The notes beneath the pieces are model-generated. The model did no database searches. It saw nothing but the letters and a program-made list of their open reading frames with translations, and had not been told where the DNA came from. The position numbers and the translations under genes are program-made. From Phorcus lineatus (taxonomy: Eukaryota > Mollusca > Gastropoda > Trochida > Trochidae): DNA of 64,000 nucleotides. Below are positions 5,785 to 41,430 of this stretch, one piece after another (within the stretch, counting starts at the first letter, position 1; each line of letters opens with the position of its first letter). Location of the stretch: positions 53,841,877 to 53,905,876 of the forward strand of contig OV121081.1 in NCBI GenBank assembly GCA_921293015.1, given 5' to 3'.

Positions 5785-5901
5785 CTGGGACTCCATCGAT
5801 ACCAGGCAGACCATTTAACCCGGGGGGTCCAGGAGGTCCTGGTGGGCCCGGCTCACACTTTGGGCCCATGGGTCCCCTTGGGCCAACATCGCCCCTGTCA
5901 C
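5785..5901 (-). CDS. Exon 5 of the transmembrane collagen: 13 triplets with one Gly-to-Cys break
   Basis: This 117-nt exon, phase 1 to phase 1, lies between a CCCCAG acceptor and a GTAATT donor. It encodes triplets [39 protein letters not shown], then the split glycine. The sixth triplet starts with Cys (codon TGT, residue 224) where the register demands Gly, one base from GGT. RGD is not present; the sequence is GDRGDV. Locally GC-rich sequence and strong proline content fit a helical core. The Cys could be a natural imperfection used for cross-linking, a variant of the sequenced individual, or an assembly error. Confidence 0.9.
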
Positions 5902-6179
5902 CTGGGGTTGCATAAGAGTAATGTATTACTGATTATTGATAGCTTATTAATGTGGATTATATTTGCATGCAGACTCTGACACAGATAAAACGACTGAACT
6001 CACCCGATAGTATGCACCTTGACAAAAGTTAAGCGACGCATAATTTCCATTTATTTCTTAGTTTTAAAATTTTTCTCATAAAGGTGTGATTTTTGCATTA
6101 GCGGTATTTCATACATTTCTTATCATCAGATAGAGATGTTCAAACGTTGAATGCGTGCATTTGTAGAATATTCTTCACT

Positions 6180-7925: not shown

Positions 7926-8798
7926 ATCAGAGTATATATATATACACATCAGTATCTGGACTTTGGTTCATGCCACCCCCATCATACCAAACGCAACATT
8001 CCCTATTGTTTAGCAAGAAGAGTTTGTACAATTGTTTCTGATGGTGATGTTAAAAGCAATCGCCTTGATGAACTGAAAAGCTTTTTACTTAAACAAAACT
8101 ATCCAGAAATGTTGATAAGTGATAGTATATCAAAAGCTTTAAATACGGACCAGCAACACATGAGATCTAAAGTGGAAAAGAATATCGATACTCAAAATAA
8201 TCTTAATCTTGTATCCACTTTTAACCCTAATCATGATAATGCTATGTCTATCGTGAAACGTTATCTTCCTATTTTAAGTCCTAGTCAAAAAATGAAAAAG
8301 ATTGTCGATAAATGCAATTTCATAAACAGCCGTAAGCAACCCAAAAACTTACGCAAAATTTTGACTACTTCTAGATTTGACTCAGTTGAGGTTATCCCGA
8401 AAGTATCAAAGTGTGGAGATTCACGTTGCTTCACGTGTGAAAGTATTATTGAAGGATGTTCCATAAATAGTTCACCAAAGGATACATTTGTTGTTAAACA
8501 AAACATGAATTGTGACACCAAAAATGTTATTTATGTAATCATATGTGCTGGATGTAATGAGAAATATATCGGGGAAACAGAGCAAAAATTAAAGAGGAGA
8601 ATGAACCTTCATCGATCCCACATTAACCAGCCCCGAAATCGAACTATCCCTCTCAGTGAACATTTAGAAAAATGTGGTAATGGCAAGTTCAAGGTTTTCC
8701 CGATATATAAACTCAATTATAACAATGATAATGATTTACTTTTGAAAGAATCATATTTCATTCGTAAATATGCGCCAAAATTAAATGGCAAAACATAA
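7926..8798 (+). CDS. Penelope-like retroelement, C-terminal polyprotein fragment with GIY-YIG endonuclease
   Basis: The frame is open from 7926 to the stop at 8796-8798. The first ATG is at 8109, but upstream codons from 7959 already read as element protein (DFGSCHPHHTKRNIPYCLAR, then RVCTIVSD), a conserved stretch between the reverse transcriptase and the endonuclease of Penelope-like elements. Then come a Cys-rich linker (KCGDSRCFTC) and the GIY-YIG nuclease (VIYVIICAGCNEKYIGETE, then KLKRRMNLHRSHI), with a late conserved Glu in KESYFIRKYAP. Family members also carry a reverse transcriptase before this part; it is missing, so the copy is 5'-truncated and not autonomous. The ~290 remaining codons have no stop or frameshift, which suggests a fairly recent insertion. 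It lies in intron 4, antisense to the collagen gene. Confidence 0.9.
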   Translation: MRVYIYTHQYLDFGSCHPHHTKRNIPYCLARRVCTIVSDGDVKSNRLDELKSFLLKQNYPEMLISDSISKALNTDQQHMRSKVEKNIDTQNNLNLVSTFNPNHDNAMSIVKRYLPILSPSQKMKKIVDKCNFINSRKQPKNLRKILTTSRFDSVEVIPKVSKCGDSRCFTCESIIEGCSINSSPKDTFVVKQNMNCDTKNVIYVIICAGCNEKYIGETEQKLKRRMNLHRSHINQPRNRTIPLSEHLEKCGNGKFKVFPIYKLNYNNDNDLLLKESYFIRKYAPKLNGKT

Positions 8799-8945
8799 TG
8801 TTGCTTACAATACAATTTATTGTTGTCAAGTTCATTATGACGTCATTAGTTCCTGTGTGACGTCATAGTATTATGTATTTAGTGTCAGTTACTGCATTAA
8901 ACGGCCTGATGATCTTAATATATATATATATAAATATATATATAT
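7931..8945 (+). mobile_element. 5'-truncated Penelope-like element inserted in TA repeats
   Basis: The element runs from a TATATA tract (7933-7943) to a longer TA tract (8918-8945). Its 3' part after the stop codon carries two TGACGTCA motifs (near 8838 and 8861) and then CCTGATGATC (8905-8914). The same order of TGTGACGTCATAG and TGATGATC occurs in the inverted repeat at 39.2-39.7 kb, so I regard both as tails of one family. The TA tracts may be target DNA or the element's own end; exact boundaries are uncertain. Confidence 0.7.
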
Positions 8946-9103: not shown

Positions 9104-9217
9104 CTTTAGGTCCTACAGGTCCTCTGAAGCTGTTGGTGTTGTGCAGATTTTCTGCAGGAAGTCCCGAGTAGAGAGACAGAGCGGCAACACCAGACTCGCC
9201 CTTCTGACCAGGTAGAC
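9104..9217 (-). CDS. Exon 4 of the transmembrane collagen: short collagen runs around a 20-residue interruption
   Basis: This 114-nt exon, phase 1 to phase 1, runs from a CTTGCAG acceptor to a GTTAAT donor. It starts GLPGQKGESGVA and ends GPVGPKG. Between them about 20 residues (183-202 of the protein; ALSLYSGLPAENLHNTNSFR) break the Gly-X-Y register. Such non-collagenous interruptions give flexibility or recognition sites in membrane and basement-membrane collagens. Gliomedin's collagen region is also split in two. No N-glycosylation sequon is present in the interruption. Confidence 0.88.
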
Positions 9218-12200
9218 CTGCAAGAGTATTTGTCAAATTTGAATAGTTTGATGCTGTGAAAATGAAAATATGATATAACGATAATGATATATGATGAAAG
9301 TTATAACACAATACAGTTCGTACTTTAGCCCCATTTTAATCAATTTTATGTACAAACCGGACTTTTTCTTTAAACGACAACTAATGGAAGGATATTGATA
9401 GTGAATTTTTTGTCGTACCGTTTGTTTAGTCATTCTTTTACAAGATAAAGAATATTTTTTACTTGGAAGTCCAATTTAGCAATATTAAATAGTACTATTC
9501 GTTTCACTGTGACAGTAAAATATGCATTGTAATGTACCTATATTTTATGCTTCATAGTATATTCTTAACGTATTACACATAATTGAACTTTGCAGACACG
9601 AAATAAATATTTGTTGTAAATGATGGAAAATAGACTGTTACATGATATTCCTGCTGGAAATTTGTTGTTAGTATGTGTTGGTTCTTTGATGTACCGGTAC
9701 ATATACAAAACAAATTAATCAGTTAGACAGCAATAATCCGGTTCTAAAATTTGATGATGCATTAAATATAATTTTATTATTCGTTTACGTGACTATTTGT
9801 TTATTTAGTTCACGAGTAATTTAATGCACGTTGTAATTTTGTGATGAGAAATAAAATTTATAGTTCAGAGAAAACATAAAACACGATCTCACGATTTGCA
9901 TATTACTTAAACAAAACACCAGACACATTTGAGAAAACAATGATGTTTATGATTTCGATTAACCGCTTTCATTCAAGAACGCAAAACAATAAAGGATTTG
10001 TAAATGTCACTTGGACTTACTTTATTACTGCAAGACAAATGTATATATCTTAATGTCCCACATTGTGATAATCCAAACTAGCTGTTAAACATATATTATT
10101 TATCCTATCATGGCCACCTATGTCGTGATGGACAGATAGCATCTCGGCACAATTTACATATATCTCATAACGACAATCATGCTATATTCATTAGTTCATT
10201 TATATGTGAACTAAAGAGATAATAAAGTAAATTTAGATACCCGCCACATTAATTTGAAGGAGGTTTCGTTCACTTAATGAACAGGCCATCTCATTCGGGG
10301 AAATAACCACGGCACGCTACAACCGGATATAGCATTTAAAGCACAGAATAGAGAAAACATATTTCACCCAGACTGTAAGAACAACTGTACAAGTAATCTT
10401 GGCAAATTCAATATTATCGATTGACATCAGGAAATTAGACTGCAGAGGTAATGTGGTTTCAATTAGAATAATACGTTCCCAGTTCAAAGAGGGTCAGTGT
10501 TGTGTTACAGCTTCTGGGTTCGGAGTCGAGGGACTGTAGTTACAGAAGGTCAACGAGGAGCAGTTTGCAGACATTTACAACTCTTTCCTGTCACTGTAGA
10601 CATCTACGATGACATTTCTATGAAGGCAGTCAGAACAATCCGTTCTTTCATTTAATTGGCATCAATTGGTGAACTTTATTTCAGTTGTCATTGTGCCAAG
10701 TTGCTCATGATCAACGCTTTCTACCAGAAGCACGTATCTGGGCTTTTTTATGAATTCAAGGTAAATAATGAAAATACAACTGAACATTCGTCAAGATTCC
10801 CATTGAATTAAATAGATAAGAGGGAAAATGTATTAGTATTACCTTGTAGTCGACCAGCATATGTACATGTATGGGCATATTGTGCTTTACTGCCTAATAA
10901 GGATAACACTCTTCCTGACGCTTTCTTCATGTGGTGTTGAATACCGTTGCATATCCAGGAATCGTGAAGGAAGGGGTGGGGGAGGTTCGCCTATTGCAGA
11001 GGTATTTCATCTAGTTAATGGTTTATTTTTATTTACTGAGTTGAAATTTCGACTTCTTTCAGCTTATACTTTCCTGCTACTGCTCACTACTTTACTAACA
11101 CAACTTAAAGTCCCCCTCCACTTCCTTAAACAACAAATGACATATACATGTATAATGTAACATGACTGACGATTTTGTATCACGGCAACAAGGTATGGAG
11201 TGTTTTCATATTGTGTGCTGAGTGCTGAATTATATCGACAAAAATTAAGGAAATTGCTGACAGCACCAATATGGCCTCAATGAAATCACTGCCACGACTT
11301 AAATCATTTGTAAAAAATCTGAGAACAGTTATGTTCTAATTTCTTCCCAAAACTATTTTACAATGTTTTGGACGAAAAAACCCAGCTGACCCTCAATTCA
11401 ATTATATCAACAAGCCTGGTACAAGCCTTCATATTGATTAATCAAAAGAAACTATTTTTCTAAATTTGTTATCAGATATATAATATAAGATAAATGTAAG
11501 ATAAAGTACGGGCTGTAATTGTATTACAGTGACACAAGCTTCACTCGGTCCGTGTATATATAACATGCATTAAGAAATTAAATTACATACTGAAACATTA
11601 CCATCGGAAACAACTCGGTTGTTTATGAAGTAATAAACATTGATTTCAGATGCCGTGATTAGTTTTGAATTCAGAATTACGATTGAAAAACACGATATTA
11701 GCGGGCTTACGGTAGAACTTCAATACGCACAATAGACAATTCACGTTTATATAAACCAAGTCAACAAAGAGAAGCCTAATAAACTCTAATCAGAATTAAG
11801 CCTTCGGGTAGTTTGATATTATTTCGTTTATTTTCATCTAATGTCATACAATACCCAACATGAAAAATGTGAATTATCATTGCAATATTTTGCCGCGGGT
11901 AAATTGATTTAATTTTGAAAGCAATTGAATAAAAAAAACATTTAAAAAATAAAATCAACCGAGTTTGAAACGACCGGATATTTTGTCATAGCTGTAATTT
12001 GTTTTATATCTCGATCAATATGATTTCCATACAATTTTTGTATTGCATTTTAAACTTTACATTCAAACTGTTTGGCATAAACTTTTTAAAAATCAAAACC
12101 ATTTTCAAATTGTTTGAAATAGGGTAAAAGTCAGGCGGTTTTCTGCTACACGCTGTACACAGTGAAATCTGTCGGAAGATTATATTAATCAAATAGTCTA

Positions 12201-16111: not shown

Positions 16112-16285
16112 AAGAAATAGAGTAGCCTCAACCATCATGTGTTTTGCAATAAAGTATAGTTTTGCCCTGAACTATTATAGTTAAAGTACGAGGCCGAAGG
16201 CCGAGTAGTTTGACGTTGATAATAGTTCAGGGCAAAACTATACTTTATTGCAAAACACATGATGGTTGAGGCTACTCTATTTCTT
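16112..16285. repeat. Apparently perfect 67-bp inverted repeat (foldback) with 40-bp spacer
   Basis: The left arm 16112-16178 is the reverse complement of the right arm 16219-16285 with no mismatch that I could find by eye. The spacer contains GAGGCCGAAGGCCGAG, itself palindromic. Near-identity of the arms implies recent origin or gene conversion between arms. The motif ACTATACTTTATTGC of the right arm recurs at about 16448-16462, so the element may extend beyond the hairpin. Confidence 0.85.
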
Positions 16286-38357: not shown

Positions 38358-39012
38358 ATGATGAGAGAAACAAAACAGTATTTTGTTGCTGCAATAGAAA
38401 AGTCAATCAACAATATATTCGGATATTATATAAAGGGCTGTCGAATTTATTACGATATACTACAAGAATCAGTTCATAGTATGACTTTACACAAATATAA
38501 GGAAAAGTGGGAAAGAGACCTCGAAGTAAGTAAAGTGAATGGAATCAAATAAATAAAGTACCTTTTATTTCAAATCTAAATTCAAAATCAAGATAATTCA
38601 AAACTCGATTCTACATAGAAATTTCCCGACAAATAATCTTTTATTTAAGATGAAAATTAAAGATGAAAATAAATGCAGCTTTTGCGAGGAAGAAAAAGAG
38701 TCCATAGGTCCTCTCTTCTTTGATTGTCATATTATAAAAATATATGGAACAAAGTTAAAGAATGGATAGAGACCAGAACATTTGCCTTGGATACCCTGAA
38801 TACAGACATAGAGTACTCAACATGATAATCATTACTGTCAAGTACAACATCTTTAAAACAAAGCAAAATGGAATGAAACCAAATTTTACATACATGTACA
38901 TTAAGAATGACTTAAAAAAACATATCATGGTGACAAATTTAACCTGCAAATATTCGACATTTATGACGTTTTGGTCAACCTGCCACTTACTTTTAAAGAC
39001 TGACCAAGATTA
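38358..39012 (+). pseudogene. LINE 3' fragment: C-terminal part of an ORF2-type protein
   Basis: The stretch begins open with YYDILQESVHSMTLHKYKEK and WERDL. After stops it continues in other frames with KTRFYIEISRQI, then a Cys-rich part (CSFCEEEKES in the frame covering 38676-38705), then a tail with KYNIFKTKQNGMKPNF. This order (a KWE-DL block, a hydrophobic helix, a CxFC knuckle and a final K-IF-K block) is that of the region after the reverse transcriptase in L1-like LINEs. Frame breaks show it is dead. It is immediately followed by a long TA tract. Confidence 0.6.
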
Positions 39013-39105
39013 ATGTTGTAGTGCTATAGCTTTGTATAAGTGTATTTCGAAAACTCTTAAATTGAAACTAAAACCGACGCCTTTAATTGGGTAAACTATA
39101 TATGT

Positions 39106-39180
<75 letters not shown>
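39106..39180. repeat. (TA)n tract
   Basis: About 75 bp of TA repeat with one break near its start. It lies just left of the inverted-repeat element and may be its insertion target. Confidence 0.95.
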
Positions 39181-39184
<4 letters not shown>

Positions 39185-39253
39185 CACAAAAAAACTTCTT
39201 CATAGTTCAAGTAATAAATAGATAAAAAACAAAAGTCTGGAAATGATTTAAAT

Positions 39254-39292
39254 CCCCGACCGGTTTCACACTATTCAGTGATCATCATGGGG
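39254..39292 (-). ncRNA. Hammerhead-ribozyme-like core (left arm)
   Basis: Mirror copy of the 39586-39624 structure, identical in sequence on the minus strand, which is the strand transcribed with the collagen gene. It has the same C-to-A departure in the core. Confidence 0.45.
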
Positions 39293-39585
39293 TCTTTATG
39301 ACGTTGCCATGCTATGACGTCACAGAACAAGGGGCGCATAACTCTTGACAATCGATGCGTACCCACAGATTGGTGACGTCATTACTTTACATCAATCACA
39401 TATAATAATACTAACAGCAGTTTTTAGATATGGACAAAGTTAGGTGACATTAATTGCATTTAATTGTGGCTTGAAAAGTTTAATGAAATAATGTTCTTTC
39501 ATCTTTCTCTTTTCATCACTGTTCGACATGACTTTGTAGAAGGGGAATATTTCTGTGACGTCATAGCATGGCAACGTCATAAAGA

Positions 39586-39624
39586 CCCCATGATGATCAC
39601 TGAATAGTGTGAAACCGGTCGGGG
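39586..39624 (+). ncRNA. Hammerhead-ribozyme-like core (right arm)
   Basis: CCCC (39586-39589) can pair with GGGG (39621-39624) as stem I. TGATGA (39591-39596) and GAAA (39611-39614) are the two conserved core strands. CACT/AGTG around GAAT (39598-39609) is stem II. ACC/GGT (39614-39619) is a loopless stem III, as in minimal hammerheads that act as dimers, and cleavage would fall after C39620. The base before TGATGA is A (39590), where the canonical core has C, so this copy may be inactive. The folding is my reading by eye. Confidence 0.45.
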
Positions 39625-41430
39625 ATTTAAATCATTTCCAGACTTTTGTTTTTTATCTATATATATATATATTGTATTGCATGATGTTATCAATTTCTGC
39701 CAATTGTGTTTAGTGTTTCTTGTATACGATGTGTTTCATATGTGTAATTGCAATGAACATGTACCACAAAAAGAAATTAAAAAACCCCCAAAAACGAATT
39801 TATTCGGACCATGTTAGATATTTTTCCTGAACTAATGTTGACATCAGAGGATGTTAATGTACATCATTCTGCACTAAATAGTTGGTACCCTGTTTGCTGT
39901 AATTTTAGGTTTCATAGAACCGGTGAGTCACTTCATTCACGTAATGCCTACTGTTATAAGATGGCTTCATTTTGATCGATCGTGTTCTCTGGATGGTATG
40001 GTCATCTCTACTATGACAGAAAACAAATCCGTCGCAAAATGCATACACTTCTTTCTCTTATTTCCATTCTTTGTATATGGATCTAAATGACAATAGATCA
40101 AACACTAACATCAAAACGTCATAATTTGATCGTCGGTTTATGTATAAATGGTAAGAAATTTACCTGTCACAACAATGATTTGCACATATATACACAAGAA
40201 CATGGTAGGTAAGCGAGTTATATTGAACACAAAATGTGCCCTTTTCATAACAAATGATTTAACAGACTATACTCGTTGTTTTTTCTTTGCGTTTTAAAGC
40301 AAATGGTGGCTTTGAAAAATATTATCACATTAACTATGAAAATAATCAAAAGCAGTACTCAGGTAAACATAAACCATTTAACGAGCTTCCACGTAATAAC
40401 ATTTATGTTAAATTAAATGAGTTAACGATTTTGCATCAAACGAGCAGAGGTCGGAATCTTATTATATCACGAGTTTAATAAAATGGTGTTCCCCGGGCAA
40501 GACTTTAATTAAGGATACGGCTGTAAAGGGCAAAGTCCTTATTGTTATTGGTGTGTTTTATTATCATCATTTCACAGATCTTCAGATCGAGATTCAGCAA
40601 CAGTCACTGAAGCAAACGCAAATAAACTTTATATTCAAACAACGTTTACTATACAAGTCCTCGAGCATTTTGGTTACAAAGGAAAAGTACTAAATTGCCC
40701 GGAGAAGCCGAATGATCGTATTTTTAACATAATTTTCGAAAACTGAAATTCAACCAAACTCTATCAATGGAAAAGTTTTATTGGCGTGTTTATTATTATT
40801 CCTCTTTCGAGACTTTTTTGAACAAAATTCAGCCAAAACAACATGATATTTTACAGCCAAATTTCATATACTAATAGTCCTCATTATGGACTCACGGTGC
40901 GAAGCTTTTGTGCCAAATCAAATGATTAAATGAAGGCCAAGCTCGACCCAAATTTCGGAAAATTAACATGGGACAATATTCAAAATGCACCTAGAGACTT
41001 GCACCTTTTTTATATGATACGCAATTTTCATAAAACTTTCAGGGAGGATTTTTAACCATTTTGTCGAAGTGGCGACTATATTCTTGACTATATTCTTTAC
41101 GTATCTTTTCTGTCCTTATAGTCCTTTATCAAAAAAAGCATTCCCGAAGATACGCTATCAATGAGCTTATATTTGCACATCATGAAGCTGGAACGTTGGC
41201 TGTTACTGATTTATTGTAGGACCCACAAATGTGCTATACTGGTTTCGCTTGCCTATTACATATCTTATATTATATATATGTATATATGTATGTATGTATA
41301 TACATAAAATGAATTTTACAACCATGGCGTCAACATTGCTTATTCGAGCAGTTTGCAAATAAGAACAACACACTTGCATGCACTTATCCACGTTTTTAGA
41401 GTAATGAAACTGGTTTATTTCTTTGAGTTT

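Follow-up and report, generated by a model that had tools for sequence, protein, structure and literature searches.

An insertion of about 480 bp at ~39181-39660 of the window, the whole 64-kb stretch of Phorcus lineatus DNA that was analysed, consists of two 5'-truncated copies of one family of Penelope-like elements (PLE), which are arranged head to head between TA repeats so that both outer ends are 3' ends of the element. One outer end lies at a distal point (long tail) and the other ~37 nt earlier (short tail). The locus is most probably the scar of a retrotransposition in which two reverse transcriptions proceeded from both sides, began at two start sites in the RNA, and were united by end joining. 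Its arrangement is another case of the head-to-head pLTRs with an optional tail that have already been published for PLE.

Over 114 positions the arms at 39214-39327 and 39551-39664 show a single mismatch, at 39217, and are otherwise complementary (113/114); the identity between 39218-39327 and 39551-39660 is 110/110 bp. Of the inverted repeats listed for the window, three reach 40 nt; this pair is the longest of them and had been annotated initially as a perfect 110-bp mirror pair. The identity is confirmed, and the type is an inverted repeat rather than a mirror repeat. Comparison with other copies further places the start of the left copy ~37 nt beyond that noted, at ~39181.

The insertion is bordered on the left side by a TA-rich target repeat (39103-39180); terminal ends of other copies likewise adjoin TA repeats. 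The left copy, on the minus strand, is the longer of the two. Its 3' end is the long-tail extension at 39181-39217, for which other copies show the same ~37 nt followed by TA repeats. The left arm (39218-39327), assigned as the 3' part of this copy from its identity to the right arm and from genome matches of 100%, carries a hammerhead-like core at 39254-39292 with A at position C3. The remaining 3'UTR occupies 39328-39439, with TGACGTCA at 39374, and was delimited by alignment to another locus (L075) and by colinearity with the 3' region of a second PLE in the window. The C-terminal end of a GIY-YIG endonuclease ORF with its stop codon follows at 39440-39550, and the same 36 aa are encoded by other copies. 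The two copies overlap by 2 nt at the head-to-head junction (39551-39552). The right copy, 39551-39660 on the plus strand, is 5'-truncated and has the short-tail end, as identified by arm identity and end type; its core, also with A at C3, lies at 39586-39624, and the TA repeat of the target on the right side at 39660-39672. Just upstream of the insertion, at 38557-38769, an ORF remnant resembling the C terminus of a non-LTR retrotransposon was seen by eye.

The PLE identity was established from the 223-nt interior between the arms, which on the minus strand, from 39550 down to 39440, encodes IFPFYKVMSNSDEKRKMKEHYFIKLFKPQLNAINVT and a stop codon. The peptide shares 14/32 identities with the C terminus of the second PLE ORF of the window (tblastn E=4.8e-5), and the endonuclease match of the interior scores 81, a value that none of 500 shuffles of the interior attained (highest score 46); the 36-aa remnant alone matched no Pfam family. 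The two PLE ends are colinear, with the endonuclease end followed by a 3'UTR with TGACGTCA motifs and then a TGATGA core. The alignment scores 86 against 46 (sd 7.4) and is equalled by none of 1000 simple shuffles; the portion past the stop codon alone is weaker, its score being reached by 13 of 2000 shuffles. From the endonuclease remnant and the colinear 3' region, both copies are thus identified as 5'-truncated PLE, the left one on the minus strand and the shorter right one on the plus strand. Hence the Penelope origin proposed in the initial annotation is upheld, both by the endonuclease end in the interior and by its presence in other copies (see below). The locus displays the C-terminal GIY-YIG domain of endonuclease-type PLE, here as a remnant, together with pLTRs, which in PLE are direct or inverted with an optional 30-40 bp tail, and an AT-rich target. 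Under a strict pattern 49 of the 54 arm instances examined adjoin a TA run, three more adjoin 8 nt of one, and the remaining two are the internal arms of L075.

The second PLE belongs to a different family and is also 5'-truncated (7926-8918, plus strand; endonuclease ORF 7926-8798, GIY-YIG E=9.4e-9). Its 3'UTR includes TGACGTCA at 8838 and 8858, and at CTGATGA (8906) its hammerhead is cut off by TA repeats. It is flanked on both sides by TATATATATATA. Its relatives include some with ~95% and others with ~60% identity, some of them in open frames of at least 800 aa; in viral contigs, its protein as query gave 15 pattern matches and no confirmed relative. Collagen-like Gly-X-Y coding on the minus strand at 5790-5910 and 9105-9220, seen by eye, likely represents exons around the second PLE. 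The TGACGTCA motif, which resembles a cAMP-response promoter motif, occurs at nine sites in the window (mean 0.86 and maximum 5 in 300 shuffles), five of them within the two PLE ends. Four further TGACGTCA palindromes (15504, 16388, 16411 and 16434) share a stretch with a perfect 67-bp inverted repeat with a 40-nt loop at 16112-16285, a region that is probably another repeat element.

A search of the genome (958 Mb, 74 contigs) with the left arm gave at least 42 matches, at least 30 of which, own locus included, are 100% identical over all 117 bases, counted among the best 40 of 600 candidates scored. Stretches were fetched around 33 other matches and, together with the own locus, comprise 34 loci with 54 arm instances. 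Of the 33 fetched loci 27 retain the endonuclease end, a few of them only partially; in the other six the truncation falls within the 3'UTR or at its edge. Genomic copies, the search for which had been suggested in the initial annotation, were therefore found, and in the majority they are linked to a Penelope-like protein. The full-length relative L075 has pLTR-ORF-pLTR plus one inverted pLTR and measures 3.9 kb from pLTR to tail. Its last ORF encodes a GIY-YIG domain at E=2.4e-5; no Pfam match to a reverse transcriptase was obtained for its three ORFs, among which the long ones upstream of the endonuclease may contain PLE-like reverse transcriptase motifs. The PLE family of the arms (arm family) is abundant and recently active.

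The arms have two discrete ends. The short end is ...TTATCTAT followed by TA repeats, and the long end continues for ~37 nt more (TTATTACTTGAACTATGAAGAAGTTTTTTTGTGTTAA in most) before TA repeats begin. Among the 54 arm instances 32 are long, including two internal ones of L075, and 22 are short. Neighbouring arms in the 34 loci form 19 head-to-head (minus/plus) and no tail-to-tail (plus/minus) pairs. One long and one short end are combined in 18 of the 19 pairs, own locus included, and this pattern also fits L084, where the short partner is 38 nt. The 19th pair, in L075, is long/long, yet it is internal to a larger insertion: its arms were counted as internal because both run past the tail into ORFs. 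The outer ends of L075 are one long and one short, the latter read from a match of a second search. Rearranged endonuclease fragments separate the two internal head-to-head pLTRs (L075:3005-3750), each of which extends beyond the tail into ORFs. In 13 of the 34 loci a single terminal end lies within the fetched stretch; in L073 the partner leaves that stretch, L067 has an inverted internal fragment, and L077 by eye seemingly has a short one. Also by eye, in L066 an inverted stretch resembling the tail region of the L093 family adjoins an arm-family copy just upstream of 437, so that on sequence grounds this pair was possibly formed from two different families.

The query of the main search included four long-tail bases, which biases this sample towards long ends; in each search the best 40 of about 600 candidates were scored. 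The second search, which favours short ends, gave at least 46 matches (best 40 of 597 candidates scored) and revealed at least five further close opposite-strand pairs, on C29, C37, C16, C1 and C13. Each of these consists of a full short-end match and an opposite-strand match ending at query position 104, which is where the long tail diverges, so the match coordinates indicate that they too are long/short.

The distance between the two copies of a pair is -21 to +17 nt in 17 of 18 cases (negative values are overlaps, some of which shift with alignment scoring). L062 is the exception, with no simple join and other sequence inside. The two truncation points differ in all 18 pairs, and in L081 they lie far apart, at 346 and 2589. 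The 23-mer at the own junction was found in none of the 33 other fetched loci. The differing truncation points and the unshared junction indicate that each pair arose in an event of its own rather than by copying of a single unit. A foldback or MITE-like element propagating as a whole inverted pair, which would suit a short (~480 bp) element with long inverted repeats between TA repeats, is therefore an extremely unlikely source of the locus; this candidate was rejected, the same inverted unit not being repeated among the 34 loci.

Two independent adjacent insertions of the same family were also considered, since an abundant family that prefers TA repeats can produce neighbouring insertions. 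That origin is very unlikely, given that all but one of the pairs adjoin so closely, always head to head and always with one long and one short end. Moreover, the right flank of the own locus showed no remainder of the first copy (score 34, reached by 108/200 shuffles). An artefact of assembly or sequencing that created a false inverted repeat is extremely unlikely: inverted duplications can arise as chimeric reads, but the duplication does not extend into the flanking sequence, one tail is longer than the other, and pairs built in the same way, each with its own junction, are present at 17 other loci.

Self-priming, in which one cDNA folds back and is copied to its start to give an inverted pair, was favoured by Arkhipova and colleagues for inverted pLTRs, and rotifer head-to-head PLE copies with palindromic junctions have been read in this way (PMC3846280, available in part). 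Five of the 18 pairs here (L072, L074, L085, L086 and L087) have truncation points less than 50 nt apart and overlaps of 5-21 nt, and their near-palindromic junctions resemble those read by others as self-priming; their tails, however, differ too. Back-copying of a first cDNA should reproduce its own tail, hence the unequal tails in 18/18 terminal pairs disfavour such an origin, as do truncation points that lie far apart in most pairs, e.g. in L081. Self-priming is accordingly regarded as quite unlikely. Two-sided reverse transcription fits the data better than either fold-back copying or a propagating inverted unit.

In two-sided reverse transcription, the endonuclease of the element would cut both strands at a TA-rich site, and each free DNA 3' end would prime reverse transcription inside the element RNA, one at the distal and the other at the proximal start. 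Both cDNAs would stop early and then be joined by end joining. The anatomy, tails and junctions are observed directly, and it is the cutting, the priming and the order of events that we infer; a target-site duplication is not readable within the TA repeats. Purified PLE protein of Anolis cleaves both DNA strands, extends each of them, and begins reverse transcription internally at two neighbouring sites in the RNA, which enclose the PLE tail (PMC11167929). The in-vitro study reported no difference between the strands in the start site used (PMC11167929), and thus does not predict a strict long/short split.

The core has the sequence CCCC-A-TGATGA-TCACTGAATAGTGT-GAAA-CCGGT-C-GGGG in both arms (39254-39292, minus strand; 39586-39624, plus strand). 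The order of motifs is as described in the initial annotation, but the base between CCCC and TGATGA is A, where a hammerhead has C3. A descriptor consisting of a 4-bp stem I, NTGATGA, stem II, GAAA, a loopless stem III, H and stem I had two hits in the 64-kb window, both at the arms, and none in 300 dinucleotide shuffles; when core position 3 was restricted to C, the window gave no hit. The stem order is that of type I hammerheads, and the core departs from CUGANGA ... GAAA with C3 and G8 by the A at position 3, which is found in 54/54 copies. The first stem II pair in the arm family is U.U. No hammerhead was detected at the arms in Rfam, at gathering score or at E up to 10. The initial annotation had named two observations as speaking against its reading, of which the lack of a hammerhead model match was made in this Rfam search, and copies not linked to Penelope-like proteins were not (27/33 linked).

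In the same genome, three sister PLE families that retain C3 carry the motif downstream of the endonuclease ORF (L061 at 2758; L094 at 187, minus strand; L093 at 182). In these families 24/24 cells of stems I and II pair and 5/8 pairs change on both sides, as compared with at most 37.5% pairing when the partner is slid by 1-3 columns. The counts refer to the three canonical sister families and leave out the arm family, because MAFFT misaligned the four-family set. Stem III is palindromic in all four families (ACCGGT, AGCGCT, AGCGCT and AGTACT). The L093 family matched Rfam Hammerhead_1 (RF00163) with 27.1 bits (E=2.9e-4), below the cut-off of 34. A covariance model built from the three sister families, weak with its three sequences, missed the arms when run on the window with E values up to 10, which speaks against their being easily recognised. 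Judged by its sequence, the core is a hammerhead relative descended from a PLE hammerhead, and the hammerhead ancestry assumed initially is thus supported by the same motif, in the same place and with covarying stems, in three sister families.

When two arm-family cores are co-folded in silico, they pair as a double hammerhead whose stem III has 6 bp; the energy is -29.5 kcal/mol for the two and -11.7 for a single core, or -28.7 and -11.1 when a shorter piece is used. In the same prediction sister family B (L061) does not yield a double hammerhead as its dimer, and the dimers of families C and D form stems I and II and an extended stem III. Of the dimer-active minimal hammerhead proposed in the initial annotation, the loopless stem III and the in-silico dimer stand, and activity is doubtful because of A at C3 in 54/54 copies. 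Two cores in one transcript, as also proposed, are not available in the sense orientation: the right core reads in sense on the plus strand alone and the left core on the minus strand alone, a layout that precludes an intramolecular dimer. The alternative offered there, a long hairpin, agrees with the predicted plus-strand fold of the locus (a hairpin of ~110 bp, -251 kcal/mol), and a transcript spanning the locus would be expected to adopt it. A MIR2646 match in Rfam at the arms (E 0.011, far below cut-off) was dismissed as reflecting this long hairpin. A 9-bp stem around the distal start site appears in the centroid fold, but was set aside, its folding energy being ordinary (z -0.29).

Minimal type I hammerheads of PLE are reportedly the subject of Cervera and de la Pena 2014 and Lunse et al. 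2017. They are known to sit in pLTRs and are expected to work as dimers (PMC7761336, accessible in part). Like the core, they show the type I order without the non-conserved nucleotides of helix III (PMC7761336, same part); the arm family differs by A at C3 and the U.U pair. Even with A at C3, the hammerhead might still work as an intermolecular dimer and shape the element RNA, which would be in keeping with the modelled double hammerhead and with possible self-cleavage of tandem PLE minimal hammerheads via dimeric motifs (PMC7761336, same part). Such activity is nonetheless unlikely: A occupies C3 in every copy, the first stem II pair is U.U, Rfam gave no match, and each sense core at the own locus faces its complement. 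Furthermore, C3G and G8C each abolish cleavage of the Anolis PLE, C3A not being among the mutants, and insertion of that element does not need cleavage (PMC11167929). The presence of A3 in both arms and all copies examined means that the source RNA very likely had A3, and, as far as sequences can tell, the arm family probably spread without efficient ribozyme cleavage.

The core pattern had no match in viral contigs and was found at 51 loci in bacterial and archaeal genomes. None of the latter combines a C-run stem I with 4/5 paired positions in stem II: in L036 the core is preceded by CCCC but 3/5 pairs form, and L046 reaches 4/5 pairs but lacks a C-run. These loci were therefore read as chance matches and rejected as relatives.

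The closest parallels are among PLE of other animals. Penelope of the rotifer Adineta vaga (e.g. Pen2/Pen2a) likewise has inverted pLTRs with some copies 5'-truncated, the head-to-head arrangement commonest, AT-rich targets, junction microhomology, and a 31-bp tail that is optional on one inverted pLTR (PMC3846280, in the portion available). Its junctions were read there as self-priming palindromes, whereas the tails are unequal in all 18 typed terminal pairs of the arm family and, in most of its pairs, the two truncation points are unrelated. Poseidon of Anolis carolinensis (PAc) shares with the arm family a C-terminal GIY-YIG endonuclease, AT-rich targets, a hammerhead situated near where reverse transcription begins, two start sites bounding a 30-40 nt tail, and cleavage and extension of both strands (PMC11167929). 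PAc differs in that C3 is kept, the ribozyme cleaves with protein present, and the ORF starts in the hammerhead (PMC11167929), whereas the ATG in the arm-family core by eye soon meets an in-frame stop. Metazoan type I retrozymes resemble the locus in being small repeated elements of animal genomes with a type I hammerhead, but they are short direct tandem repeats (PMC7229834, in the part available), whereas the locus is an inverted pair with a protein-coding remnant and has no direct tandem of the arm.

The broader reading, that double-ended insertions of the arm family use two start sites and never the same one twice, and that the family spreads with its hammerhead off at C3, is offered tentatively, at slightly less than an even chance of holding as a whole. 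A strict long/short rule is not stated in the portions available of PMC11167929, PMC3846280, PMC6155905, PMC7229834 and PMC7761336; as most subscription papers lay outside the search, the rule is not claimed to be unpublished. If the reading is true, every double-ended scar of this family would combine a long with a short tail in head-to-head orientation, and perhaps two subunits of a dimeric complex hold the two start sites. The arm family further provides a natural case of a PLE family that multiplied while its core carried a change expected to impair cleavage. The insertion mode of PLE and their frequent inverted copies are still an open matter in the field, and a young family with ~600 search candidates in one genome, the ends of which can be typed by tail length, makes the question of insertion countable.
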